DNA of 36,548 nt, taken from IMG/VR virus record IMGVR_UViG_3300030450_001980, positions 1 through 36,548 of that record, one strand, 5' to 3'. Position numbers and translations under genes: made by a program. The DNA is from a virus. Below the pieces are notes generated by a model. The model was not told where the DNA came from. It saw only the letters and a list, made by a program, of their open reading frames with translations, and searched no databases. Positions 7,029 through 36,427 of this stretch are shown here, in pieces (position 1 is the stretch's first letter; the number at the start of each line of letters is the position of its first letter).

Positions 7029-7350
7029 ATGGTTAATACAACCCTAGAGCAAAGCATAGAACTCCCTACCCCTCATCAGAGGGTGGGAGGCTATGCCGTT
7101 AGAAATTACAACCCTTGTCGCTTTCGTGCATACAGATCATATTTCAAGCTAGGATCTGCGGAAATTCATTTATTTATTCTTGAAAATATAGATAGCAACT
7201 CAAATTCCTTCACTTTGTTGTGTGGCTTTCTATCAACCCCTTTTGGTAACCACTTTATTTTTATATTCAAGCCAAAAGTTTCAAACCAAACCTTGAATGG
7301 ACTACTAATATATGTATTGTTTTATATTTATATCAAGAACTTTTTTTTAC
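7029..7350. other. Non-coding stretch between early units
   Basis: A 118-codon frame from ATG 7029 spans this stretch, but its plus strand is pyrimidine-rich unlike the purine-rich genes around it, it has no ribosome site of its own and it would end inside the promoter at 7351. The minus strand is full of stops. Besides the hairpin at 7054-7096 it contains nested inverted repeats (CTTTTGG with CCAAAAG near 7242 and 7273; ATTCAAG with CTTGAAT near 7265 and 7292). I read it as untranslated RNA or control sequence. Confidence 0.5.
7037..7115 (+). ncRNA. Structured RNA candidate with flanking 9-bp repeats
   Basis: GCATAG (7054-7059) pairs with CTATGC (7091-7096); inside, CTCCC pairs with GGGAG, and the apical part closes as CCCTC-ATCA-GAGGG with small bulges, giving about 16-17 pairs with high GC in an AT-rich genome. 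The direct repeat TACAACCCT occurs at 7037-7045 and 7107-7115, just outside the stem. There is no T-run after it, so it is not a simple terminator. The strand of transcription is inferred from the neighbouring genes. Confidence 0.45.
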
Positions 7351-7380
7351 TTGACAATGTCAGACTTATTCATTTATATT
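7351..7380 (+). promoter_or_regulatory. Near-consensus sigma70 promoter
   Basis: Perfect TTGACA at 7351-7356, 18-base spacer, TATATT at 7375-7380 (5/6). Transcription would start near 7387 and give a 5' leader of about 36 bases to the gene at 7423. It is the best promoter match seen in the window and heads the DNA-metabolism unit. Confidence 0.75.
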
Positions 7381-7422
7381 CGTAATAACATATGGTAATA
7401 ATTTATAACAAGGAGAGTTAAA

Positions 7423-8055
7423 ATGAAGGAAATGCCAAAAAACATAACAGCGGTAGCTGAAAAATACAAACTAAATCCAGAGTCAGATTTCTGGACAATA
7501 GGTGACAATTGGATTATAACACACGATGCGGTTACAAAGATTGCAGAGATAGAGAATGTTGAATTTGATGAGCCTAAAGTAGAAATAATACACGACACCG
7601 AAGCGTTTTATGGTGTAGCAATGTGGGGTAAAGGTAGGATTATAAGAATAGATGAAGATGGAAACGACTTTACTAAAGAAGTTTGGACTACCGCAGATGC
7701 TACCCGTGATAATGTTAGAGGTAAAGGTGGTTATTATTTTAATATGTGTGAAAAAAGATGGCAAGATCGTTTGGTCTTAAAACTGCTTAATTTATATGAG
7801 TATGGTTTATATTCTGATGTAGAGGCAGACGATTTTAAAAAGGGTCAGAGCAAAGAAAAGCCTATGTCTGATTATATGAAGAATACTATTAGGCAGTTGC
7901 TTGTAGCTAAAAAAGAATACAGGCGTGAAGAAACAGAGGCTATTTTTCAATCTCTTAACGCAGAACAGGGTAAGGAATGGCGGGATAGAATACAGAGTCC
8001 AGAGATTGATAAATGGATTGTAGAATTTTATAAATTAAACAAAAAGGAGAGTTAA
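7423..8055 (+). CDS. Putative recombination / ssDNA-annealing protein
   Basis: A 210-residue protein. It begins with DFWTIGDNWIITHDAVTKIA and a second block MCEKRWQDRLVLKLLNLYEY followed by YSDVEADDF. I know this two-block pattern from phage proteins encoded beside SSB genes and from annealing-type recombinases ('-AEKRA-DRV-LKL--'), but cannot name a family firmly. The C-terminal third is helical and charged (EAIFQSLNAEQGKEWRDRIQ). It is the first gene after the strong promoter, has AAGGAGAG nine bases upstream, and is followed directly by the SSB-like gene with the same leader. The role is inferred largely from context. Confidence 0.5.
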   Translation: MKEMPKNITAVAEKYKLNPESDFWTIGDNWIITHDAVTKIAEIENVEFDEPKVEIIHDTEAFYGVAMWGKGRIIRIDEDGNDFTKEVWTTADATRDNVRGKGGYYFNMCEKRWQDRLVLKLLNLYEYGLYSDVEADDFKKGQSKEKPMSDYMKNTIRQLLVAKKEYRREETEAIFQSLNAEQGKEWRDRIQSPEIDKWIVEFYKLNKKES

Positions 8056-12654: not shown

Positions 12655-13968
12655 TTACCAAACTTCCACCACGCTAAGAGTTACACTCCAAGTTTGATAA
12701 GCTACCTGTCTGGCTTCAAAAGAATCTTGGTCTAATCTGCATACACAATATTCTATTTCATCGGTATCGCCACCCTCACCATCTTTGTCGGGCGTAAAAA
12801 GAAAGGGCAAAGCTCCTCCTAATGTTAAGTCCCACAGTTGCTGTAATTCAGATCTTCCCGAGAATACCCATTCTTCATCATTATTATTATATTGCATACT
12901 TCCAAAAGATAAAGGCTCTTTGTGGTCATAAAATAAATCGTCATTTGAGATGTAAGAAAACGACATATCCCACCTGCGTCTACCGTTTCTTCCAATTTTC
13001 ATATTAAGAATTGGATTGCCAGCATTGTTACTATCTTTTCTACTTAAACTCCAGGGCTGACCCCTTAACCAAGCTGGGCTTCCATCATTATTTATATTTA
13101 CAAAGTCTCCACCACCTAATCCTCTTTGCACACTTACCCCATCAAACTCAACGGATTTTGTAACCTTTAAATCAGGGCTAACGGGCAAGTCTATATATTT
13201 ACCAAATGTTATTGCACCTATGTTAAAATCTTTTCCTTGAGAGGCATTCCCATCGTCTGTAACTTGACTGTACATATCAAAATCTACAACAAACGTACTA
13301 TAATGATAAGGCTCTGCAGATGGCAAAGAAGAAGAAGAACCTAAAGCATTGCGAAGAATTTTAACTGTATACCCATTTTTTGATATAGTGTCGGCTGGAG
13401 AAGAAGGGTTTGCGCCACCACTCAACTCAGTAAAAGGTATTTGAGATTCTGAAATTGATCCACTTTCATTGCTAGCACCCCAACTAATATCTTGGCTAGG
13501 GTCACCAGAGTGATTGTTAAAACCACCACTCCAAATATATGCACCTACATTCAAGTTCTCATCACCAGTTGCATCGTATTTAAAAGATGATGCAAGATCG
13601 TGATTTATTACAGCAACGTAATTTATACCGTGAACAAGTTTTGCAACCGCTGGAATTTGCGTGTTCCAATTATCGTTTGGATTCCAAAAACCAAATGAAA
13701 ATTTAAAATGTGCTTTTATTTCTTCGTTCCCACCATCATTACCTACTGTGTATCTAGTTGGATTGGCATAATCAAAATCCCAAACATTGGTATTCTTTTT
13801 TGCACGATTATCACTCAAACCGTCTGCATTTGCAGTTCTAAAGCCTTCCCCAGGAATTATACCTTGATTTTCTGCTAATTGTGTTCTGTCAAAATAAAAC
13901 CCTTTTACCTTAGCTAGTTGTGTGTAGTCTATAAAAAATCTTGGTGTCCCAACACTTTGCTTTGCCAT
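12655..13968 (-). CDS. Tail-tip / virion structural protein
   Basis: A 437-residue protein, last gene of the long leftward structural unit. It is rich in Gly, Asn, Ser and aromatic residues. The C-terminal third (PAWLRGQPWSLSRKD, NGRRRWDMSFSYIS, LQQLWDLTLGG, then LFTPDKDGEG) resembles a tail-tip beta-sandwich protein, and its position behind the hub suggests a distal tail or receptor-related part. I cannot name the family. It starts directly after the previous stop with AGGAGA upstream. Confidence 0.55.
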   Translation of the reverse strand: MAKQSVGTPRFFIDYTQLAKVKGFYFDRTQLAENQGIIPGEGFRTANADGLSDNRAKKNTNVWDFDYANPTRYTVGNDGGNEEIKAHFKFSFGFWNPNDNWNTQIPAVAKLVHGINYVAVINHDLASSFKYDATGDENLNVGAYIWSGGFNNHSGDPSQDISWGASNESGSISESQIPFTELSGGANPSSPADTISKNGYTVKILRNALGSSSSLPSAEPYHYSTFVVDFDMYSQVTDDGNASQGKDFNIGAITFGKYIDLPVSPDLKVTKSVEFDGVSVQRGLGGGDFVNINNDGSPAWLRGQPWSLSRKDSNNAGNPILNMKIGRNGRRRWDMSFSYISNDDLFYDHKEPLSFGSMQYNNNDEEWVFSGRSELQQLWDLTLGGALPFLFTPDKDGEGGDTDEIEYCVCRLDQDSFEARQVAYQTWSVTLSVVEVW

Positions 13969-14619
13969 CTATCTTCTCCTAAGTTGTTTTGCTCTAAAAA
14001 CTCGCTTTTTTATTATTTTCTTTTTTTTATAAAACAGAGGTTTAGAATTTTCATCGTGATTTACACCTGTCATATATTTATTTCCAAATGAATGAATATG
14101 ATATTTTCCCTCATAAACATTTCCGTCTGAGGTAAGCAATGAAGTTTCTCCAGATGTGTCTAGTCCAACCTGTATAATGTTTGTCCATTTAAGGTTAAAA
14201 GGTTTATCGTTTTCAACAGAAGAATAGTACCTAGACTCTCTATAGTCTTTAAAATTACTGTTTAAATTTTCCCAATTATCATTTCTTACAGTATCCCAAT
14301 AATGCCAGTTATTAATTCTCTTAGCTAACATTTTATTGCCATTTACATTATAACCGTCAGCTTTTAAAATTTCAAATGTCCCTTCATATGAAAATAAGTT
14401 TTGAGGGAATGCTGTTTTAGCTGTTCTTACAATTATAATTCTATTACTATTTGTAGATATAATAAAATTTTTATCTAAATTTGAAATTCCTTTAAAAACA
14501 CCTTTATATTTAATATCTAGAATAACCATATTTGTTGTTTGCCCATCGATAGCATCAAAAATAACTTCACCGCCAATTAATGATAGGCTAAAATTTCCTA
14601 CTTGATTAAAATATGTCAT
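13969..14619 (-). CDS. Tail-associated protein after the hub
   Basis: A 216-residue protein, ATGA-coupled to the hub gene. The N-terminal half is beta-rich (FSLSLIGGEVIFDAID, MVILDIKYKGVFKG); the middle has NWHYWDTVRNDNWENL and a Tyr-rich stretch; the C-terminus is strongly basic (KKKKIIKKRVFRAKQLRRR). Small minor tail proteins are common here. No family recognised. Confidence 0.5.
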   Translation of the reverse strand: MTYFNQVGNFSLSLIGGEVIFDAIDGQTTNMVILDIKYKGVFKGISNLDKNFIISTNSNRIIIVRTAKTAFPQNLFSYEGTFEILKADGYNVNGNKMLAKRINNWHYWDTVRNDNWENLNSNFKDYRESRYYSSVENDKPFNLKWTNIIQVGLDTSGETSLLTSDGNVYEGKYHIHSFGNKYMTGVNHDENSKPLFYKKKKIIKKRVFRAKQLRRR

Positions 14620-17600
14620 TCGTAAATAACTCCTAGGTCTCCATATTCGCCCTCATCTATAATATGATTAACAATTTGAAGAATATCTAAAACAGTTACA
14701 TAGTTGTCTTGGTCAATATCTGCTGCCATATAATTATATCCTCCTAACTGATCTTCAGGATTATCCCCCATTATATGGTCAACAATCTGAACAATATCAA
14801 GCACATCAATAGATTGGTCAAAGTTAACATCTCCTAACACTATTTGCGAAAATTCATCTCCCTCTACGCCTTCTTCTGCACCTTCTTCTGGCCAATGAAC
14901 ATTAACCCCAAAATCTTGCCCAAACGTAGCTAAAGCATCGTTAATAATAACATTTTCATCAAATTTATGAATTTGCAATAAAACTAAATCAACTTTATTT
15001 TGATGTTTTTTAATTTCCTGCACCATAAAATAAGGATAAACTACTTGCCCTATTTCGCTTTGGTCTGGCAAACCTATAAAAAATTCTTTAGTATAATCTT
15101 GACCGAAAATTGTCATTCCATTTATTAATCTTTCAAAGTTTACCACATCTCCAGCCTCTAAGTTCATATATTTTGGAGAAACAGAACATTTAATAATATT
15201 GTGCTGATTCATATTCCAAAGAAGAAGGTGGTTTCTTAGCTTTATAGCAGTTCCTTCATCCCTTATAAATTTACTATCAACTTCTAAATATGCGTCAGAT
15301 AATTTTCTAATTCCATATCTTTCCATTAAATAATCAGCATTAGCTGGAGCTGCACCAGTCTGTGCTACATTTGTCGAATGCTCAAATGTCTCTAGCCCAT
15401 CATCGTAAGAATAGTTAACTCTTACCATTAGCTTAACATCCGATATTGGTGTCCTTTCGTAACTAAAATCTATAACATCCTCTGGATTTATTGTTTCGTC
15501 TATTGTGTAAGCATCGTCTTTTAAATTTATAAAAGAAAAAGTGCCATCGTATCTGAATCGTGGAATTATTTTACAACTTTGACAAAATTCACTTAAAAAT
15601 GTTTTTGAATCCATTTTATCGTTTACTGTAAAACGAAATTCCCATTGACTATGTTGTGTTCTTGCTGTTTCTAAAGATAGGGAGTCATAAGGAAAATCAT
15701 TTAACTGATTATCATATCCTAGTTCTTTTTCTACTATATGCATCAACACATCGGATGGTCGCTTTATTAACCAACTATGATCTGGGTTTCCAAGAAGCTG
15801 TTCACCTGTATATCTTCCAGACACTCCGTCTGTACCTAAGTTATCTATTCTTCCCCATACATCTGCATAGTATTTTTGCTTTGCTATATTACCTATAACA
15901 AAATTTTGTATTAATTTAAAATCTATTACTCTTGTTTGAAAATATCCACTAACCGCAATACTGTCTACATCATCATTATCATTGCCTAAATAATAATATA
16001 AAGACACATTGTTGACTGAATTTACATCCTCTGACCAGTCTCCCCCTTGGTATGTATCTGCACTTTGATCCATAGCATTACATTCTTGCAGTATATATTT
16101 CGGGCTATTTATATCTGTGCCTACTGCGCTACTTGTTCCGTAATAGATATTGTTATCAAAATCTTCTGAATGACCCGTATGAAAAATATCGTATACTTGT
16201 TGCCCAGCTTCATTTTCATCGCCTGTTAATGGCTCGGTATTATTAAGTATTTCTGAAATTTTTAAAACATCATTTTTATTAGAACCTGGAGTTGAATCAA
16301 AGCTAGTTGCTTCTATCATAAAATGCATATTAGCATCTGTATCTTCAGTTGAAGCTGCGTTTCTATGAAACAAAGTTTCTATTTTGCCTCTTAAAGTGGA
16401 GTACACACTCCCCATTACCACATCTGAGCCACTAATTGAGTTAAATGTTAAGTCTAATTTGCTTGCAATTCTATTTCCGAAAGAATTACTAACTAAAGCC
16501 CATTGACCTCCTAACATAGCTTCGACACCTTTATTATCAATATTTGGATGCCCCCAGTTATAACCTACTCTGCCACCAAAGTCATAATAGCTTACGTGGG
16601 TTACGTATTGACTTTGCCCCATAGAATTAAGTGCTTTATTGTAGCCTGAATGGTATGCCAAACCATATTCATTAGGCTCTGCAGAATAAACCATACCAAC
16701 CCACCAATAGCCTTGCTCTTCTATAGCTGGAATAGAATATGCTGGATCGATATAATAATCACTAGTAGGGGCAACAGTATCTGGATATGTGTAATGCTGT
16801 CTAACTATCCAGTCTGGGCTATTTATCTCTGTATATTTTGCATCCGCAGGCCACATATCATTTATATCTGACCCTGCAGGACTATCTTCACCAACATAAT
16901 TTAAATCTCCATCTAAATCGTGCCTAACCAAATCTCCTAAATCTGCTGGAGGGTTAAAAACATCGGCAGATCCATAAGATTGTAAGGCATCACAATTAAG
17001 AGTATAGTAGGAGCCAAGCGTAAAGCTTCCCGTTCCTGGGTAAATGTTTGTAATCGCATAGTAATCTTCAAACCACGTATTTTCTAATGATGTAATCTGT
17101 ACATTCCCAAGAGTTGGAAATATCCCATAAATACTAGACCCTCTTCTTATTCCAGTATATTGATGCTCCTCTTCGGTTAATTTTCTACCCCAAATTATTT
17201 TATTTAAAGTTACGTCAGTATTAGTTATTTGAGGGTCAACCCCTATTTTAGCTGCATCGTGAACTGTTATCCAATCTGCTACACCATCTTTTAAAAACAT
17301 ATCCCAGTCTGTGTCAAATATATTTTTTGTTATACTAATATATTCTTGGTCGTCATCTTCAAGGGAGTTAAAGTTAGCCCCATTACCAGACCCTTCAACG
17401 AGAATTGGCGCATTTTCGGCAGAGCATTTTATATAAAGATACTCGCATATTGGAAACTGCTCCCAATCTTGCATTTGCGAAGCTATAAATTCAAGAGCAT
17501 CTCCCCCTCCAGGTATACCGTCATTTGCCTCTAAATCTCCTCCAAGGTCTATATTGTCCCCGCCTATTCCTATATTTATAGTAATTGCCGCATTACCCAT

Positions 17601-19004
17601 CCATCTAGTCTGGCCTATATCCATCGTCCAGTCATCAGGAAGTAAATCTCCTCCTGGCTGCTCTCTTAGCCAAGCTGTCATCTTATCTAAATCAAATATT
17701 TCTTTCCAAATCGGATGCCCACCTACACTAGGCCTGTATGAAAAATCAAATCCTGTCAATCCATCTGTTGCATCAGATATGTCTGGATGTTTTAGATAAT
17801 TAACATATCTCATATTCGTAGCCCAAATAGGGAAAGGGCCGTTTGGATCACCCATTTCGGCAAGACCATCCCAAAATCCGTGTAGCCTCATATTTTGATA
17901 ATAACCCATAGGCTGAATATCTCCTAATGATGGGTCTGGGAAAGTAAAAGTGTCCCCAGATAAAACAGATGAAAGTCCATCCTGTTGTCCTAAATACTGA
18001 ATTTGTTTATCTTCCCCATACGCTATTGGGTCATCTGATTGGTCTGGGGTTAGGCTTGAGGGGCTTCTTTCTGCTACAACTTGAAACTGGTCTTTTGCAA
18101 CTATGTTTTTAGGAAGTCCTGATGAGAAGGCAAAATCAGATATTTTTTTCTCTAAAACTATAGCATTTCCATTATCTGATACAGTATATTGTTCAGTTCC
18201 ATTAAATTTGTCCGCATAGTTTTCTCCGCCTATAAGCTCAAAATCAGTAGGTAGATCTAAAAATTTCATTGGAACTTTTAAATAATCAGAATCTCTTAAA
18301 ATAATCAACGGATCAACTTCTTCTTCTGGCGTGTTGTTAATAAACCCATCAAATCCTAATATGTCTATTCCAGGAACGTGTGTAGCATCTGCATATATAT
18401 ATGATAACAAACTTTCATTATATGGCCTGCTAAATATCATTGGAGATTTTTCATTACGACCATATACCATAGGGAAATAAACATATTTAGAAGTGTCTAT
18501 TGATTCTTGAGAGCTGTCTACTGTGCTATGCCTAGGTATAGTTTTATCTTCTAATGTATACTGACTATGATCCTCAACTGTAAAAGTAGCTCTTTTTTCA
18601 TCTGCCTTGTAATTTTTAACAAACCCCTTATATATTAAAAGGCAATCCTCTAAATTTCTACAATTATCATTTGCATAATATATATCTACTGACGAATTAG
18701 TAAAAGTATTGCCTTCAAATTTTTCAGTAAACCTTTCTCCTTTTATCATATAATTAGATACAGAAATATCTACTTGATTTACTTGAAATTTCCTATTTTG
18801 AACATCAACTCTTTCTCTAATTGATGACACTTTTAAATCTCTGTCTTCAAAAACCCCTTCAGATCCACCAAAAAGACCCTTTTTTTGACTTAGCCTTATG
18901 ACTTTCCCTACCCCATTATCATAAACAGATATAACAACAACTGGAAAAACTCCTGATATTTTATGGGAAAATCCTTGTTTGAATTTTTCTGGTATTGGAA
19001 TCAT
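14616..19004 (-). CDS. Tail hub protein with large insertion and C-terminal dockerin
   Basis: A 1,462-residue protein. Residues 1-170 (QVDISVSNYMIKGERF, SSVDIYYANDNC, LIYKGFVKNY, TFTVEDHSQ) and about 1080-1380 (SKTFLSEFCQSCKIIPRFRY, FSFINLKDDAY, LRNHLLLWNMNQHNI, YMNLEAGDVVNF, VDLVLLQIHKF) look like the two halves of a gp27/Tal-type hub. About 900 residues of Gly/Asp/Tyr-rich sequence lie between them. The C-terminus (1385-1462) holds two EF-hand-like dockerin repeats: D1392-x-N-x-D-x3-D1400-x2-D1403 and D1429-x-D-x-D-x3-T1437-x2-D1440. Siphovirus hubs close the tail tube and carry receptor-binding parts. It follows the tape-measure gene by TAATG overlap. Confidence 0.7.
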   Translation of the reverse strand: MIPIPEKFKQGFSHKISGVFPVVVISVYDNGVGKVIRLSQKKGLFGGSEGVFEDRDLKVSSIRERVDVQNRKFQVNQVDISVSNYMIKGERFTEKFEGNTFTNSSVDIYYANDNCRNLEDCLLIYKGFVKNYKADEKRATFTVEDHSQYTLEDKTIPRHSTVDSSQESIDTSKYVYFPMVYGRNEKSPMIFSRPYNESLLSYIYADATHVPGIDILGFDGFINNTPEEEVDPLIILRDSDYLKVPMKFLDLPTDFELIGGENYADKFNGTEQYTVSDNGNAIVLEKKISDFAFSSGLPKNIVAKDQFQVVAERSPSSLTPDQSDDPIAYGEDKQIQYLGQQDGLSSVLSGDTFTFPDPSLGDIQPMGYYQNMRLHGFWDGLAEMGDPNGPFPIWATNMRYVNYLKHPDISDATDGLTGFDFSYRPSVGGHPIWKEIFDLDKMTAWLREQPGGDLLPDDWTMDIGQTRWMGNAAITINIGIGGDNIDLGGDLEANDGIPGGGDALEFIASQMQDWEQFPICEYLYIKCSAENAPILVEGSGNGANFNSLEDDDQEYISITKNIFDTDWDMFLKDGVADWITVHDAAKIGVDPQITNTDVTLNKIIWGRKLTEEEHQYTGIRRGSSIYGIFPTLGNVQITSLENTWFEDYYAITNIYPGTGSFTLGSYYTLNCDALQSYGSADVFNPPADLGDLVRHDLDGDLNYVGEDSPAGSDINDMWPADAKYTEINSPDWIVRQHYTYPDTVAPTSDYYIDPAYSIPAIEEQGYWWVGMVYSAEPNEYGLAYHSGYNKALNSMGQSQYVTHVSYYDFGGRVGYNWGHPNIDNKGVEAMLGGQWALVSNSFGNRIASKLDLTFNSISGSDVVMGSVYSTLRGKIETLFHRNAASTEDTDANMHFMIEATSFDSTPGSNKNDVLKISEILNNTEPLTGDENEAGQQVYDIFHTGHSEDFDNNIYYGTSSAVGTDINSPKYILQECNAMDQSADTYQGGDWSEDVNSVNNVSLYYYLGNDNDDVDSIAVSGYFQTRVIDFKLIQNFVIGNIAKQKYYADVWGRIDNLGTDGVSGRYTGEQLLGNPDHSWLIKRPSDVLMHIVEKELGYDNQLNDFPYDSLSLETARTQHSQWEFRFTVNDKMDSKTFLSEFCQSCKIIPRFRYDGTFSFINLKDDAYTIDETINPEDVIDFSYERTPISDVKLMVRVNYSYDDGLETFEHSTNVAQTGAAPANADYLMERYGIRKLSDAYLEVDSKFIRDEGTAIKLRNHLLLWNMNQHNIIKCSVSPKYMNLEAGDVVNFERLINGMTIFGQDYTKEFFIGLPDQSEIGQVVYPYFMVQEIKKHQNKVDLVLLQIHKFDENVIINDALATFGQDFGVNVHWPEEGAEEGVEGDEFSQIVLGDVNFDQSIDVLDIVQIVDHIMGDNPEDQLGGYNYMAADIDQDNYVTVLDILQIVNHIIDEGEYGDLGVIYE
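14619..14852 (-). other. Dockerin-type calcium-binding domain coding segment
   Basis: Encodes residues 1385-1462 of the hub. Both repeats follow D-x-[ND]-x-D-x3-[DT]-x2-D with VLDI-x-QIV-x-HI helices. The two coding copies resemble each other in DNA as well (14656-14690 and 14770-14805), so the pair probably arose by duplication. Dockerins bind cohesins on cell-surface or secreted scaffolds; Ca2+ is needed for folding. Confidence 0.8.
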
Positions 19005-21970
19005 TAACTAATGCCTATGTCTGCACCTCTACGGATAGCATCTTTAATTTGTGGGATTGCCTCTTCTTCAATAAAATCTCGGCTCATTACATTTCCACTA
19101 AAAGTGACGTTCACTCCACTACTTGCTTGCCCAGTTCTATTCATCCTATTTAAGTTTTCAACACCTATAGACTCTACAGCTCTTCTATTAATAACATATT
19201 CTCCTTCTTGAGCCATTATAGGCACGTTATCTACACCGCTACTAATAGTTCCCCCAGAATTATACCCCTGCATTGGTATAAGGCCACCTGTTGCATAACC
19301 CTCAACTTCTCCGCCTTGATGTTTTATGTCCATTAACCCAAGCATTGCAGTACCTAAACCACCACTCCCTAGGTTTAATAACATTGCTATTATTTTAAAA
19401 AATCCAGTAGCGATGGCTTGAGCTGCAATCTGTTTCATAACTTGTGCAACATTATCTCCAAAAGTATCCCAAGTAATTTTATTTATTTTATCAAATTCTA
19501 CTAACGTTGCCACTATAGCACTATGCAATCCATTTAAAGCGTCTACTCCTATTTGTTCAAGAAAATCATATTCTTTGCCTACATTTTTCACGTTTTCTTT
19601 TAACTGGTCAGTAAGTTGTACTAATAACTCGTAAACTTCTTTTAAACTCTCATTTTCTTTAACTTGTTTTTCTAAGCTCTCCAACATTAAATCAAGCTGA
19701 ATAATATAATTTTCCAATACCTCTTTTTGACTAAGCATTGAAGATTCTAATTCAAAATTTGTGTCATTTAAAAACTTTACCACCTCTGTATACTCTCCCC
19801 ATTTTGGGGTTAACGCTGATATCTCTGCCGATAAAACTAAGATAGCATCTGCCGTAGCTTGATACCTTTTGTCAGTTACTTCCATTGTTTTAAAATGGTC
19901 TTCTAATTCCTTCTTCTCTTCTTTTTTTAATTGAATCTGAGTTTTTGTTGAATTGTTTAATTTTTTAACAGTTTTGTCTAGTTTTTTAATAGCTTGTTCT
20001 TCCTCTATAAACAAAACGTCTAGGCCTATATCTTTTAAACTTTTCAGTTGATTCTCTAAAACACCTATAGTGCTTTTAAACATTTCCTTATTTTTTTTAT
20101 ACTCTTCTCTTTCTATTCTACTCATTTTTGAAATGTCTGTGCTTTCCAGATAGTCAAGATATTTAACCCTAGCATCAAATAATTGTTTTTGAGCTTTTGT
20201 GTATGAGGACATTCCTGCTATATTACCTACTACTTCGTCATACATTTCTTGAGCTTCGGTTGCAAGTCTTGTAACCCTCTCCTCTTCTTCAAGTGCCTCA
20301 ATCAATAGGTATTTTTCCGCTAGAAGATTAGAAATTTGTTGAATCTGCTCTTTTGTAAGTTTTAATCCTTTTTCTTCAAAAGTGTATAGTAATTTTTTCG
20401 CCTCTAAAATCATACCAGAATTATCCCTTTCAAGCTTCATCATCGCTATTTCTTTTTTATAATTAGGAATTAAATCTGCTTTAATTTGCTCTTGCGCTCT
20501 TACCATTTCATTGTATTGGCTTTGCGCTTTTACTAAATCTTTATATAATTTATGCTCTCCATCAAGAAGGGCGTTATGGCGTTCTTCAAGAGTATTCATC
20601 CTTTCTTGCCCTGTAAGTCCATTAGCCGTATCAATATTTAGTTCTTTTTGAAGTTTGCTTAGTTTCTTTTGTATACTGTTCCTATCTTCTGCGTTTGACA
20701 TATTTGACATTGTAATAGCAAATCCCTTCTTTTGAAACTCTAGCTCTTTTTCAAGATTTTTCTCTGTTTTTGCCAATTCATCATTGTATTTTTTCCGAGC
20801 ATCTGTAAGAATTTTTTGAGTACCTGAAAAACTGTTGCTAACTTTTATAAGCTCTTTATCAAATTGTGTTAAAGTTTGAGTTGAAACCTTTACTGCTTTT
20901 GAAGATTGTTTTGATCCACCTGAAAGAGCTGCAAAAAAAGCAGATATAACTTCTAGCGCAGCAAAAGCTACAGTTGAAGCCATTAATATTTTAAAGCTTT
21001 TAGCTAGCGTTTTAGTAGCTACTGCCCCAGCGTTCATAGCTGTCACAGATTCCCACAGGCTTGCTCTGAATATTTTAAATCTTTTAGAAGCTAAAAGTGC
21101 GCCTATTGAAAGTGCTGTTATGCCATTTGCTAAATGTCTCGGATTAATTGTTTTTAAAAGTTCTCCAAAAGATGTAAGTGCTTGAATAAGAGGTTTTAAA
21201 GCTTCTCCTAAAACACTTCCTAATCCTTCTCCTAAGTCTCCCCAAGTATTGCCAAGTGCTTTTACAGCACCAGAATAAGTGTCTAACTCTGCTGCCGCTT
21301 GTCCTCCGTATTTTTCATTTAATTCTTCAAGTATGGCGGTCAGTCTTTCAGGCCCTTCAAGCCCTTCTTCTATTGTTATTCCATACCGACTTAAAGCATT
21401 AGTTGAACTAAATATAGATTTTGTTATAAGGTCTGTGGTTGTTACTAAGTCCATACCTCTTGCAGATGCCATATCTTGAGCGGCAGAAGCAACTTTTTCT
21501 ATAGCCTCTTCATTTTTTGTAAACGCCGCAACTTGCGACATTGCTTGAATGGTAACTTCATCCCCAAATACTGTAACTTTTTGTTGGGCTGATGCGTAAT
21601 TTAATAGTCTTTTTGAAGTAACTCCTAGAGCTTGAGATAGTTTTTTTTCAGCTAATTCTTGTTTTGCATATAAAGAAGTGAGCTTGCCTATTGTTTTCGA
21701 GTATCCTGTGGCAGCAAAAGCGGCTAATAAAAGAGTGTTTCTGTATTTTGCTATAATTCCCTGTAGCTTCGCAAACATTTTGCCTTGTTTTCCAAGAGCA
21801 TCTGTGTTTTTAGGGACACGCATACCAAATTCTTTTTGAGCATCTACAACTTTCTTAGTACTGTTTTCAAGCGTTTTTTGAGCTTTAGCCAAGCTTAATA
21901 TTGCTTTTTCTAAACTTTTATTACCTACAGCTTTAAATTTAATTTGTATTGTTTCTTGACCTTGCGGCAT
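19004..21970 (-). CDS. Tail tape measure protein
   Basis: A 988-residue protein. The N-terminus (SLEKAILSLAKAQKTLENST) and residues about 110-260 (VTVFGDEVTIQAMSQVAAF, LITKSIFSSTNALSRYGITI, AAELDTYSGAVKALGNTWGD) match tape-measure proteins. Long coiled coils fill the middle, hydrophobic helices occur near 280-350 and 860-890, and the C-terminus has GGVEGYATGGLIPMQG-type and AQEGEYVINRRAVE motifs. At this length a tail of roughly 150 nm would follow from the usual 0.15 nm per residue. It overlaps the chaperone gene by 32 bp. Confidence 0.88.
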   Translation of the reverse strand: MPQGQETIQIKFKAVGNKSLEKAILSLAKAQKTLENSTKKVVDAQKEFGMRVPKNTDALGKQGKMFAKLQGIIAKYRNTLLLAAFAATGYSKTIGKLTSLYAKQELAEKKLSQALGVTSKRLLNYASAQQKVTVFGDEVTIQAMSQVAAFTKNEEAIEKVASAAQDMASARGMDLVTTTDLITKSIFSSTNALSRYGITIEEGLEGPERLTAILEELNEKYGGQAAAELDTYSGAVKALGNTWGDLGEGLGSVLGEALKPLIQALTSFGELLKTINPRHLANGITALSIGALLASKRFKIFRASLWESVTAMNAGAVATKTLAKSFKILMASTVAFAALEVISAFFAALSGGSKQSSKAVKVSTQTLTQFDKELIKVSNSFSGTQKILTDARKKYNDELAKTEKNLEKELEFQKKGFAITMSNMSNAEDRNSIQKKLSKLQKELNIDTANGLTGQERMNTLEERHNALLDGEHKLYKDLVKAQSQYNEMVRAQEQIKADLIPNYKKEIAMMKLERDNSGMILEAKKLLYTFEEKGLKLTKEQIQQISNLLAEKYLLIEALEEEERVTRLATEAQEMYDEVVGNIAGMSSYTKAQKQLFDARVKYLDYLESTDISKMSRIEREEYKKNKEMFKSTIGVLENQLKSLKDIGLDVLFIEEEQAIKKLDKTVKKLNNSTKTQIQLKKEEKKELEDHFKTMEVTDKRYQATADAILVLSAEISALTPKWGEYTEVVKFLNDTNFELESSMLSQKEVLENYIIQLDLMLESLEKQVKENESLKEVYELLVQLTDQLKENVKNVGKEYDFLEQIGVDALNGLHSAIVATLVEFDKINKITWDTFGDNVAQVMKQIAAQAIATGFFKIIAMLLNLGSGGLGTAMLGLMDIKHQGGEVEGYATGGLIPMQGYNSGGTISSGVDNVPIMAQEGEYVINRRAVESIGVENLNRMNRTGQASSGVNVTFSGNVMSRDFIEEEAIPQIKDAIRRGADIGIS

Positions 21971-22691: not shown

Positions 22692-23711
22692 TTAAGCTAA
22701 GTCAAATGTAATAATATCATTTCCAACATTAACTGCTTTACCTTCAATATCAAGCATCATTATATCTCCCTCGCTAAGAGAAGCATTTGTCAAAACTCCT
22801 GCCCCAATAGCTATAGAACAATTAGTAGCGCTAGCTTGCGTCATTGTAAAAAAGTCTGCTGCGTCAACTCCTATTGATCCTTGAGTGTTAAAATTATTAA
22901 GCAATGGCCTTGTAGCCGAATCATACTTAACTTGAGCTGAACAAGTAACTGCCAACTCTGGGCCTCTAGCAAAAGCAGCGTACCCTGTAGCAGCTACACC
23001 TGAATATACAGCAGGACTATCTATAGTTACACTAAAAGAACTTAATATTGTGCTTGCTATACTATTTATTGTTGTAGCTCCTGTTAGTGTAGATATTGAT
23101 ATAGGAGCTGCCGAATAAACTGTACCCGCTTCAGTTGCTGTGTTGTTTGTTATAGGTTTGCAACCAGTTGATATTGTAGCAGACCATTTATACAAACCAC
23201 CTTCAGCTCCTGCTTCAGCAGATATAGTAAAATTAGTACATAAACACCCAACTAAAACAATGTTATACCCATCAGTAGTATCAGGTGGAGCTAACACCAA
23301 TGTAAACGTCTTATTAGCTTCCGTTCCACTACCATAAAGACCCGACACAGTTGTGCTAGCAGTTGGAATAGCTACATCAGCTACAGTTGATTGTAAATTC
23401 ACCCCACAAACACTTTGCATTAATAATATATGCCCTGTATCGTTATGATAAGTCCCAGATAACGACACTTCTGTTGATCTTATAACATCATCTTGGAAAA
23501 AATCATTTGTATGCAAAACTCTACCTACGCTTGACCTAACATCTAAATTTTGGTTAGGAGTAATAGATGGAAAACTCACAGAGTCTACATCTAATTGTAA
23601 CATTCCTGATGTTATAGCGGGGGCATCTAATGCTCCTGCGTTATTACCTGTATCTGTTTCTTCTATTACCCAAGCCTTAAAATCTCTTGGTGAAAATGCT
23701 GCATTAGCCAT
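22692..23711 (-). CDS. Major tail (tube) protein
   Basis: A 339-residue protein with low charge and many Ser, Thr, Ala and Gly residues. The N-terminus (AFSPRDFKAWVIEETDTG) and repeated beta-type segments (VSLSGTYHNDTGHILLMQSV, TFTLVLAPPDTTDGYNIVLV, GLYKWSATISTGCKPI, STILSSFSVTIDSPAVY) resemble tail-tube proteins, and the position between tail terminator and chaperones supports this. It is long for a tube protein, so it may carry a surface domain. Confidence 0.72.
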   Translation of the reverse strand: MANAAFSPRDFKAWVIEETDTGNNAGALDAPAITSGMLQLDVDSVSFPSITPNQNLDVRSSVGRVLHTNDFFQDDVIRSTEVSLSGTYHNDTGHILLMQSVCGVNLQSTVADVAIPTASTTVSGLYGSGTEANKTFTLVLAPPDTTDGYNIVLVGCLCTNFTISAEAGAEGGLYKWSATISTGCKPITNNTATEAGTVYSAAPISISTLTGATTINSIASTILSSFSVTIDSPAVYSGVAATGYAAFARGPELAVTCSAQVKYDSATRPLLNNFNTQGSIGVDAADFFTMTQASATNCSIAIGAGVLTNASLSEGDIMMLDIEGKAVNVGNDIITFDLA

Positions 23712-33703: not shown

Positions 33704-33803
33704 ACTGCCCTCCTATCTTGTGTTTTGAAAAATAAAAATACTATATCTTGTATTTATCTTACGCCATAAGTTAGATTATGGCAGTTGTTTATTGCAACCT
33801 TTA
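33704..33803. promoter_or_regulatory. Divergent promoter region with perfect inverted repeat
   Basis: GCCATAA (33763-33769) and TTATGGC (33776-33782) form a perfect dyad with a 6-base centre. For the leftward unit, TATAGT (complement of 33740-33745) could be a -10 box with TTATGG, 18 bases off, as a weak -35 that overlaps the dyad. For the rightward unit TTGAAA at 33725 lacks a good -10. The dyad may be an operator for one or both late units. Confidence 0.45.
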
Positions 33804-35126
33804 ATGGAAAATAATTTAAATAAAGACATTGAATTTAAGAAATCTTGGTTTGACTTTATGGGATATAATCCGCACAAAGGTCAAGAAAAATTGCATTTTC
33901 CAACTAAAGAGACAGCTCGGTTTTTTGTCATGGTGTGTGGTAGAAGGTTTGGTAAGACAACTTGTTCTGCTATGGAAGCAACATTTGTAGCATCGCAGCC
34001 GAATAAAAGAATATGGTGTGTTGGTCTATCTTACGACAAAGCAGACTTAATGTTCCGTGAAATTTGGGAAAAGATGGTAGTTGGGCATCAGAATGATATT
34101 ATAAGAGCATCTGAAAAAGAGCGATATATAAAATTTAAGTGGGGTACAGTTGTTGAGGGAAAGTCTGCTGATAACCCAGATTCATTAGTAGGTGAAGGTT
34201 TAGACTTGCTAATTATAGATGAGGCTGCTAAAGTAAAAAGAAAAATATGGGATATGTATTTATCTCCTACTTTGTCAGATAGAAAAGGTAAGGCAATATT
34301 TATTACTACCCCAGAAGGCTTTAATTGGATATATGATTTATATTTGCTTGGACAGAAAGATGATCTATGGGAATCTCACCAAGCACCTTCGTGGGAAAAT
34401 CAGTTTGCTTTTCCTGATGGAAAGAATGATTCTTTTTTGCTTGAAAGAAAAAGAAATATGGCCCAAGAGTCATACAATCAAGAGTATGGGGCTAAATTTA
34501 CAACATTTGCTGGTCAAGTATATCCATTTGACCGCAATTTAGATGTAGGGTATTTTCCTTATAATCCAGAATTTCCTACATTTTGCAGTATTGACTTTGG
34601 CTATAGAATGCCAGCAGTAGGTTGGTTTCAAATTCATAGAATTAATGGAGAATACCATATAAACGTAATTGATGAGATTATACACGAAAGAAATATTAAG
34701 ACAGATGAACTTGTTAATAGAATTAAATCAAAAAGATATAATGTTAGGGCGTATTATGGCGACCCTGCTGGAAAGCAAGCTCAAGGTCAATCAGGTCTGG
34801 GGGATATAGAAATTTTTAGACAAAATGGTATACGTATTCAAACAATAAGAGATAAAGTGTCTAGAAATATATCTTCAGGGGTCAATCATGTTAGAAGTTT
34901 TATAGAAAATGCAGACGGAAAGCGTTATTTGCATATTGACAATAAATGTCAAGGTATGGCAGAAGATTTAGAAAATTATCGTTATCCAGAACAAAAAGAA
35001 GGTAAAGAATTAAAGCTTGATCCTCTAAAAGACGGTTTTCACGATCATGGGTGCGATATGTTAAGATATTTTTTTATAAATAGGTTTCCAATTAAACAAC
35101 AAGAATTAATAGTGAGGAAGAGATGA
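33804..35126 (+). CDS. terL: Terminase large subunit
   Basis: A 440-residue packaging motor. Walker A is GRRFGKTT (46-53), Walker B LLIIDEAA (135-142), the coupling motif ITTPEG is near 167, and the nuclease residues are D264 in SIDFG, D320 in YYGDPAG and the late HDHGCDMLRY. The frame is open from a TTG at 33792, but ATG 33804 is preferred; neither has a Shine-Dalgarno sequence, so its translation start is uncertain. It overlaps the portal start (ATGA). Confidence 0.93.
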   Translation: MENNLNKDIEFKKSWFDFMGYNPHKGQEKLHFPTKETARFFVMVCGRRFGKTTCSAMEATFVASQPNKRIWCVGLSYDKADLMFREIWEKMVVGHQNDIIRASEKERYIKFKWGTVVEGKSADNPDSLVGEGLDLLIIDEAAKVKRKIWDMYLSPTLSDRKGKAIFITTPEGFNWIYDLYLLGQKDDLWESHQAPSWENQFAFPDGKNDSFLLERKRNMAQESYNQEYGAKFTTFAGQVYPFDRNLDVGYFPYNPEFPTFCSIDFGYRMPAVGWFQIHRINGEYHINVIDEIIHERNIKTDELVNRIKSKRYNVRAYYGDPAGKQAQGQSGLGDIEIFRQNGIRIQTIRDKVSRNISSGVNHVRSFIENADGKRYLHIDNKCQGMAEDLENYRYPEQKEGKELKLDPLKDGFHDHGCDMLRYFFINRFPIKQQELIVRKR

Positions 35127-36427
35127 CAGTAGAACAAATAATACAAGAATCAGTTAGAGAATTTAAACAATCTCAGCAAAAATCCAGAAGAGATCACATA
35201 AGAAAGCTTATAAATTATTATTGCGGATCAAATACGAGCATTTATATATCAAAATATTTTGACTCAGACGCTTTTAGAGAAGTTCCTTGTTATGAAGCTA
35301 ATTTTACTAAAAGATTTATAAATAAAATGAGTAGAATATATACTGTAGGAGCAGCTAGGAATGTAAGTAACGCTTATAGCAATTTAACTGTAATGAAAGA
35401 TGCTAGAATGAAGCATATAGAAAGAATGACTCGTTTAATTGGCTCTGTAGCTACTCAAGTAGTGTTTATTGATGACGATATGCCTCATTTTGACTATAGG
35501 CCTGTTTATTATTTCGATGTTCATCTTGGCGATAATCCTTTTAAACCTGAAGCTATAGTTTATCCTATCCTTAGCAATGTTGATGATGTCGCTTATGCTG
35601 AAAGTTTAAAGTATGCTTATTGGGATCAAGGTATGTATGCCCTTTACGATGAAAACGGCCATATATTAGAAGAATACGAACACGGGTATGGTGTCTTACC
35701 ATTTGTTTTTACTCATAGAGAGAATCAACTAGACTCATTCTTTGTGGATGGTGCAGATGATATTGTTTCTTGCAATGAACACGTTAATATAACTATGACT
35801 GAGCTTCAGTTAGGGTTAAGATTTCAGATGTTTGGTCAGCCTTATGTAACTGGACTTCAAGCCGATAAAAGATTAGAAAGAGCTGGATCTGACACTATAC
35901 TAGACCTACCAGAAGGATCTGTGTTTGATATTGTTGCTCCAGACGCTGATTTACAGTCAGTTATTGAGACAGTTAAGTTTCAAGTTGACTTAGTTGCTCA
36001 AAATAACCACTTATATGTTCAATTTGCTCAAGATGGTGGTGAAGTTCCTAGTGGCATTGCTCTTAAAATTAAAGATTTAGAGAGATTTGAGGACTATCAA
36101 GACGATATTGAGCTATGGAAAATGTATGAACACGAAATGTATCAAGTCGAAAGAGAGATAGCTGCTTATAATTCAATACGATTGCCTGAATCTCTTAAAT
36201 TAGACTTTAATGAGCCTGAATATCCTAAGACTATGCAAGACCAAATATTATGGGACAACCATAGGCTTGAAAACAATTTAATAACCCCAGCTAAGTTAAT
36301 GGTAGAGTATAACGATGACTTATCTATAAAAGAAGCGGAGAAATTAATTGGCGAAAACAAACAGCAAAACGAACAACAGTCAATCTTTGAAAGAATACGT
36401 CAACAAAATCAAAGACCTCAAGGATAA
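35123..36427 (+). CDS. Portal protein
   Basis: A 434-residue protein, ATGA-coupled to the large terminase gene. HIRKLINYYCGSN, CYEANFTKRFINKMSRIYT, then VVFIDDDMPHFDYRPVYY, YGVLPFVFTHRENQLDSFF and NEHVNITMTELQLGLRFQMF follow the order of SPP1/HK97-type portal proteins: N-terminal helices, wing, clip and stem. The ending is Gln-rich (ENKQQNEQQSIF). The 12-fold ring forms the packaging gate of the head. Confidence 0.85.
   Translation: MTVEQIIQESVREFKQSQQKSRRDHIRKLINYYCGSNTSIYISKYFDSDAFREVPCYEANFTKRFINKMSRIYTVGAARNVSNAYSNLTVMKDARMKHIERMTRLIGSVATQVVFIDDDMPHFDYRPVYYFDVHLGDNPFKPEAIVYPILSNVDDVAYAESLKYAYWDQGMYALYDENGHILEEYEHGYGVLPFVFTHRENQLDSFFVDGADDIVSCNEHVNITMTELQLGLRFQMFGQPYVTGLQADKRLERAGSDTILDLPEGSVFDIVAPDADLQSVIETVKFQVDLVAQNNHLYVQFAQDGGEVPSGIALKIKDLERFEDYQDDIELWKMYEHEMYQVEREIAAYNSIRLPESLKLDFNEPEYPKTMQDQILWDNHRLENNLITPAKLMVEYNDDLSIKEAEKLIGENKQQNEQQSIFERIRQQNQRPQG

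Follow-up and report, generated by a model that had tools for sequence, protein, structure and literature searches.

The window analysed here is a stretch of viral DNA of 36,548 nucleotides, taken at full length (IMG/VR virus record IMGVR_UViG_3300030450_001980). It encodes a tail-tip hub of 1,462 amino acids (aa) of the lambda gpJ type (open reading frame (ORF) at 14616..19004, minus strand, as for all hub and tail features below), and the C-terminus of this hub is a two-loop type I-like dockerin. Here a known hub type is combined with a known module, and the combination is conserved across a clade of related phages, in which the tail made of linker plus dockerin is exchangeable between similar flanks. 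With moderate confidence we read the dockerin as an exchangeable adhesin at the tail tip that would dock on host cohesins.

Identity, fold and spread of the hub dockerin

The profile Pfam PF00404 (Dockerin_1) matched hub residues 1390-1448 (14661..14837) at 28.0 bits (E 2.5e-6) when the whole hub was searched and at 33.3 bits (E 5.5e-8) when the 78-aa tail was searched alone, both above the cut-off of 22.9, and a six-frame search of the record placed a dockerin at the same site, 14661-14837 on the minus strand. Against PDB sequences phmmer gave weak matches, mainly to dockerin-bearing chains (best E 0.011). An unrelated pair of ordinary EF-hands finds no counterpart in the window protein, which matches PF00404 only and no EF-hand family. 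Among 32 aligned hub ends, PF00404 was found at E <= 0.01 in 31 and EF-hand_7 in three (best E 0.0044); Phage-tail_3 was found in 17, with none reported for the window's own.

These 32 sequences served as input for an AlphaFold2 model of residues 1062-1462 (401 aa), with a mean predicted local distance difference test (pLDDT) of 77.5 and a predicted template-modelling (TM) score of 0.67. The end of the model shows the loop-helix pair expected of a dockerin, in blocks of pLDDT 59-85, and Foldseek aligned it with the Clostridium thermocellum dockerin 2ccl_B over 62 columns (TM score 0.86 by target length, root mean square deviation 1.9); the E value is only 0.076 because the query was the entire 401-aa hub end. 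Foldseek probability was 1.00 for 2ccl_B, 2vn6_B and 4fl4_J, and 4uyp_B is a further dockerin of this fold. The conserved hub core (about residues 1062-1350; 14955..15821; alignments A1 and A6) resembles the tail-tip proteins of lambda, T1 and JBD30, with 8iyk_F at E 9.9e-11 and 9l9p_S at E 3.3e-10 (probability 1.00, TM score by query 0.46, 12% identity). Between core and dockerin lies an acidic linker (about residues 1351-1389; 14838..14954), with pLDDT <50 at model residues 305-324. The dockerin-type domain that a sequence-only reading had placed at the hub C-terminus is thus borne out by profile and predicted fold alike.

The hub start coincides with the end of the tape measure ORF directly upstream (19004..21970; PHROGs tape measure E 2.8e-8), the position expected of a gpJ-type protein. 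The lambda tip attachment protein J and siphophage hubs (8iyk, 9l9p, 8rk3) share both the core fold and the place after the tape measure gene. The C-terminus of lambda gpJ carries a fibre and a receptor-binding end; the window hub ends in a dockerin instead. Compared with type I dockerins (PF00404; 2ccl of C. thermocellum), the module has the same pair of calcium loops with a helix after each, and the same C-terminal place, whereas known ones sit on a secreted protein and this one on a phage tail hub, with a cohesin partner that is predicted. Its carrier, a gpJ-type phage hub beside a tape measure gene, is not a cellulosome component.

The dockerin is not peculiar to the window. A search of IMG/VR with a DNA pattern for the dockerin loops returned 81 stretches, of which 65 also hold a homolog of the window hub core; the other 16 have a dockerin without such a homolog and by eye comprise some host-type proteins and some truncated contigs. 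A reverse search was made with the hub core alone, using a query alignment (A2) of loci that, the window row excepted, had first been found via their dockerin. The best 80 of 85 relatives, some of them near-copies, were taken, and five with the hub cut at its 3' end were dropped. Among the 75 complete hubs so obtained, whose cores are 24-52% identical to the query in the best segment, 71 have a dockerin after the core by a model of the phages' own dockerins (lowest score 27.4 bits), a proportion valid for this clade and not for all gpJ-type hubs because A2 was drawn from dockerin-bearing loci. The same fusion is thus the rule among these related phages, and its recovery by the core alone speaks against chance or an artefact of the pattern. 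A stricter regular expression overlooked the dockerin in some hubs where the profile detected it. Across the 71, the distance from core to dockerin ranges from 9 to 388 aa; in 67 of them no more than 12 residues follow the dockerin.

Farther afield, the best hub relatives in a viral structure library reach 46% identity. Two hubs gave no tblastn match in 50,697 named phage records, where the window dockerin gave two matches (E 0.2 and 0.03) and another phage dockerin five (E <= 0.01), to unannotated contigs from human faeces.

Calcium ligands at positions 1, 3, 5, 9 and 12 of each loop are described for type II dockerins in an excerpt of PMC5590126. The two window loops, DVNFDQSIDVLD (14796..14831) and DIDQDNYVTVLD (14685..14720), have D or N at nine of these ten positions: at 1, 3, 5 and 12 in both loops, and at 9 in the first (D). 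Position 9 of the second loop is T; the same excerpt lists Ser, Thr or Lys at positions 3, 5 and 9 as infrequent variants. The earlier statement that all calcium positions are filled was therefore slightly too strong, by this one residue. Position 6, usually Gly, is Q in loop 1 and N in loop 2. Among 66 unique tails from the core-fetched set, the window's included, the ligand columns are nearly invariant: position 1 is D in 62/63 tails for loop 1 and 66/66 for loop 2, position 5 in 62/64 and 63/66, and position 12 in 65/65 and 65/66. T at position 9 of loop 2 occurs in three of the 66, the window among these, and the helices vary strongly at positions 15 and 19 in loop numbering. The dockerin is predicted to bind calcium.

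Exchange and relocation of the hub tail

A maximum-likelihood tree of 76 cores, 71 viral and five from Neomarinimicrobiota-phylum genomes, was rooted at its midpoint and has long out-group branches. The dockerin is spread over the viral rows and absent at L118, at L119, where by eye half a loop remains, at the pair L145/L158, and in the five out-group hubs. At least five changes of the dockerin label are needed, four of them forced by well-supported branches. With the root unsure and the out-groups in two places, the tree does not support a single origin of the dockerin. The record of L158 stops 139 bases past the hub, so that a dockerin in the next gene, as found in its sister L145 (below), would be invisible.

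Core and dockerin identity are loosely tied: in nine pairs with 80-90% core identity the dockerins average 56%, or 45% outside the ligands. The cleanest case is L137/L144, whose DNA is 98.5% identical to about hub residue 849, a few bases past the core, and again 98.5% identical from the hub end across the two genes that follow; the stretch between these flanks has no DNA match. Each tail still terminates in a dockerin, with 38% identity between the two, against 100% and 98.6% for the proteins of the two following genes. Three further pairs (L131/L147, L130/L143, L045/L067) likewise have a tail without DNA match between flanks 84-92% identical; the whole-locus alignment of L131/L147 already covers the last 70 or so bases of the hub. 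In L005/L055 the start of the linker is in common and the dockerins are 59% identical. The nonsynonymous substitution rate (dN) is higher in the dockerin than in the core in 93.7% of 222 pairs (median ratio 1.84); the pairs are non-independent, and recombination forbids reading the ratio as selection. The arrangement recalls the exchange of phage tail-fibre tips, where a conserved body likewise has its end swapped between similar flanks, with the difference that in the pairs counted here every swapped end is a dockerin, and the calcium frame stays the same.

The module can also ride on another protein. In L145 it is missing from the hub and instead forms the end of an additional ORF of 187 aa immediately downstream (PF00404 26.9 bits); the first 120 residues of that ORF match nothing in the window or the gathered loci. 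L066 has its hub dockerin plus a second in the middle of a homolog of the window's 437-aa tail-tip protein (L066:2140-3954, minus strand). What seems to matter, therefore, is that the tail tip has the module, and less which protein carries it. In L118 the dockerin is replaced by a tail of 346 aa that matches no Pfam family. One use proposed from the sequence, calcium serving only to fold a tip domain, is made less likely by a tail that is swapped, mostly diverges faster than the core and can relocate.

The same observations bear on a second possibility, that the dockerin is an internal joint, plugging into a second protein of the virion, such as its 216-aa or 437-aa neighbour, or into the hub itself, with calcium locking the tip. 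Near-invariant ligands would suit such a joint, relatives of the two neighbours are common in these loci, and the 437-aa model is rich in beta strands; cohesins are beta sandwiches. A specific internal partner would, however, hardly tolerate the divergence of the L137/L144 dockerins beside next proteins so nearly identical, the variable distance from the core fits a fixed joint poorly, and in L066 the 437-aa homolog bears a dockerin itself. No Pfam cohesin was found above the cut-off in any of 25 phage records, the window included, and one match fell below it (13.8 bits, in the L105 record, within a frame of 1,112 aa). We regard the internal joint as unlikely and favour a partner that would lie outside the virion.

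Candidate hosts and cohesin partners

A search of genome contigs with the dockerin alignment was examined for its best 80 of 89 relatives. Among the matches listed, the top rank goes to a Zixibacteria contig and the next two to Neomarinimicrobiota, which contribute four loci. At each of the four the ORF ends in a dockerin, three of these ORFs having a hydrophobic, leader-like N-terminus by eye; at L189 the second loop is degenerate, in a sequence with undetermined residues. The C-terminal dockerins of L164, L165 and L195 share with the phage ones the two-loop terminal form and similar non-ligand residues, but those proteins are cellular, with signal-like N-termini by eye, and not of the virion. 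Cohesins above the cut-off were found in all four Neomarinimicrobiota genomes with dockerin matches, and also in the Zixibacteria genome and that of Ruminococcus flavefaciens.

Dockerins occur in 71 of 120 genomes of the Neomarinimicrobiota phylum, cohesins in 68 (63 of them above the cut-off) and both in 56, a co-occurrence with an odds ratio of 11.5 (p 3e-9, relatedness ignored); 14 control genomes gave two with a dockerin match and one with a cohesin match. Among 40 dockerin ORFs of the phylum, some fetched twice, 25 end no more than 12 aa after the dockerin. Four genomes of the phylum (G049, G088, G116 and G127), two of them of 1.7 Mb, have a very large dockerin inventory, with at least 46-49 dockerin matches each among the best 49 candidates scored. 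Three small genomes of 0.9-1.0 Mb (L257, L260 and L262) gave no dockerin match and have a Pfam cohesin match in an ORF that by eye starts like a lipoprotein, with a Cys followed by a Gly run; this may be a surface cohesin in a genome without dockerins of its own.

The wording of the loop repeats, thought from the start to hint at the host lineage, fits Neomarinimicrobiota best among four bacterial groups compared. The phage dockerins mostly have V/I and L at positions 10-11 and N/Q at 18, whereas the clostridial loops compared have more A/S/T and K/R. A naive Bayes classifier over 34 non-ligand positions, offered Neomarinimicrobiota, Clostridia, Bacteroidota and Planctomycetota, assigned 88.2% of phage dockerins to the first, 8.5% to the second and 3.3% to the third, and the window dockerin to Neomarinimicrobiota in 200 of 200 resamplings; held-out accuracy, out of 200, was 172, 169, 159 and 185 for the groups in the order offered. 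A member of the Neomarinimicrobiota phylum is a fair guess for the host.

Traces of such phages in host genomes were sought with several alignments. The hub core alignment A4 found no relative in genome contigs, and the 437-aa family (A7) gave matches in two of 244 genomes. One of the two matches lies on a 4.2-kb contig of a Neomarinimicrobiota-phylum genome (L312), which holds a fragment related to the 437-aa protein beside an ORF that by eye is integrase-like, a hint at temperate relatives. The prophage search neither proves nor excludes Neomarinimicrobiota as host.

A number of observations weigh against this host, or against the adhesin reading at large. Most genome matches to the dockerin alignment are from gut Clostridia and Bacteroidota or Planctomycetota. 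The classifier offered four groups only, from samples that are small and were gathered differently. The A1 core matches five of 245 Neomarinimicrobiota-phylum genomes, with six more distant hub homologs of which none has a dockerin; no dockerin-bearing hub was found in host genomes in the stretches examined. Distant hub homologs occur also in two of 395 genomes of the phylum to which the Flavobacteriales genome belongs, and the link to one host phylum is thus not exclusive. A dockerin need not come with a cohesin: among the 71 genomes of the Neomarinimicrobiota phylum that have dockerins, 15 gave no cohesin match, and the same holds for the Pirellulaceae and Flavobacteriales genomes examined. 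The lack of a phage cohesin above the cut-off could also reflect incomplete phage records, or a cohesin too diverged for Pfam to recognise. As for exchange, the close pairs L010/L063, L090/L091 and L123/L129 retain the dockerin along with the core, and in L009/L037 and L022/L042 the dockerin is more conserved than the core.

The 15 genomes without a cohesin match would also suit a dockerin-like calcium mini-fold that binds some other ligand, a glycan or another protein, or merely caps the tip, as would the tail that takes the dockerin's place in L118. Such a role sits badly with the persistence of two loops and the dockerin fold in almost every hub, and with the co-occurrence of dockerin and cohesin genes in the phylum sample; we consider it decidedly improbable. 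A dockerin that binds cohesins and yet is not used as an infection receptor is also conceivable: it would tether virions to secreted scaffolds, particles or the host matrix and raise encounter rates. Some cohesin matches in the phylum do sit in frames of 1,000-3,000 aa, and the 437-aa neighbour may add a further adhesive element in the form of a carbohydrate-binding domain. The C-terminus of a gpJ-type hub is, however, the site of the lambda receptor-binding end, which favours adsorption proper and leaves tethering alone quite unlikely.

Docking on cohesin-bearing surface proteins of the host, one of the roles first suggested for this dockerin, fits the comparative evidence. As an adhesin, the module would be exposed at the tip, with two calcium ions expected to hold the two loop-helix motifs together and the helix positions that vary between phages setting binding specificity. 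Its target would be a cohesin domain on the host surface or in secreted scaffolds of the host, perhaps one of the Neomarinimicrobiota phylum, whose secreted-looking proteins likewise have dockerins at their ends. Attachment would work by mimicry, the phage plugging into a host socket as a host protein does, and would precede opening of the hub and DNA injection. More tentatively, this may hold for a whole clade of uncultured phages, with host cohesins as receptors, a virion dockerin that imitates secreted proteins, and specificity changed by swapping hub-end cassettes.

With neither phage nor host in culture, the receptor is seldom known. If the dockerin is an adhesin, the receptor, a host cohesin, would be predictable from sequence alone, which would help host assignment of these phages. 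The binding pair would be testable in vitro without growing phage or host, with the exchange pairs as ready specificity controls, and the cohesin-dockerin pair, known from cellulosomes, would gain a role in virus attachment.

Among the papers listed from the open-licence PubMed Central (PMC) literature, judged by titles, the starts of abstracts and some text, we found no report of a dockerin in a phage tail hub; in the same literature no co-mention of 'dockerin' and 'Marinimicrobia' was found. PMC5967307 mentions a carbohydrate-binding module of a cellulosome protein. By blastp, according to a passage of PMC3558961, VvAW1 gene 40 is homologous to a dockerin type I protein; that passage does not call the gene structural. 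In our own collection, the viral contig L004 encodes a host-type protein (7169-8008) that has a dockerin and what by eye is a C-terminal signal of type IX-like form; the contig may be cellular DNA, or the gene may have been captured.

Neighbouring genes in the window

Downstream of the hub, a 216-aa gene (13969..14619) has a start that overlaps the hub stop and is tail-tip associated by position. Relatives of its product were found as 42 ORFs (phmmer, 83 loci), and it has no Pfam match above the cut-off and no PHROGs match. Next comes the gene of the 437-aa tail-tip protein (12655..13968), with homologs in 119 of 163 sequences, the window and duplicates counted. Its AlphaFold model (pLDDT 68.9) gave no Foldseek match at E <= 0.001; structure comparison with VIA gave Z 9.6 to the CBM32 protein 4a42 over residues 12-258 and Z of about 8-9 to tail-tube proteins, a weak indication of perhaps a CBM32-like domain in a tail-tube or Dit-like framework. 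The protein was also considered as a cohesin and rejected, there being no cohesin among the best 50 matches listed by either structure search, which is not proof of absence. In some relatives (L119, L145) two paralogs of it stand in tandem by eye.

Farther upstream of the hub lies the tail tube protein gene (22692..23711; Pfam Phage_tube_2, 43 bits, cut-off 27). Tail and lysozyme genes occupy the minus strand over window positions 12655-33703, and the plus strand carries the terminase gene (33792-35126) followed by an ORF without Pfam match (35123-36427), possibly the portal gene.

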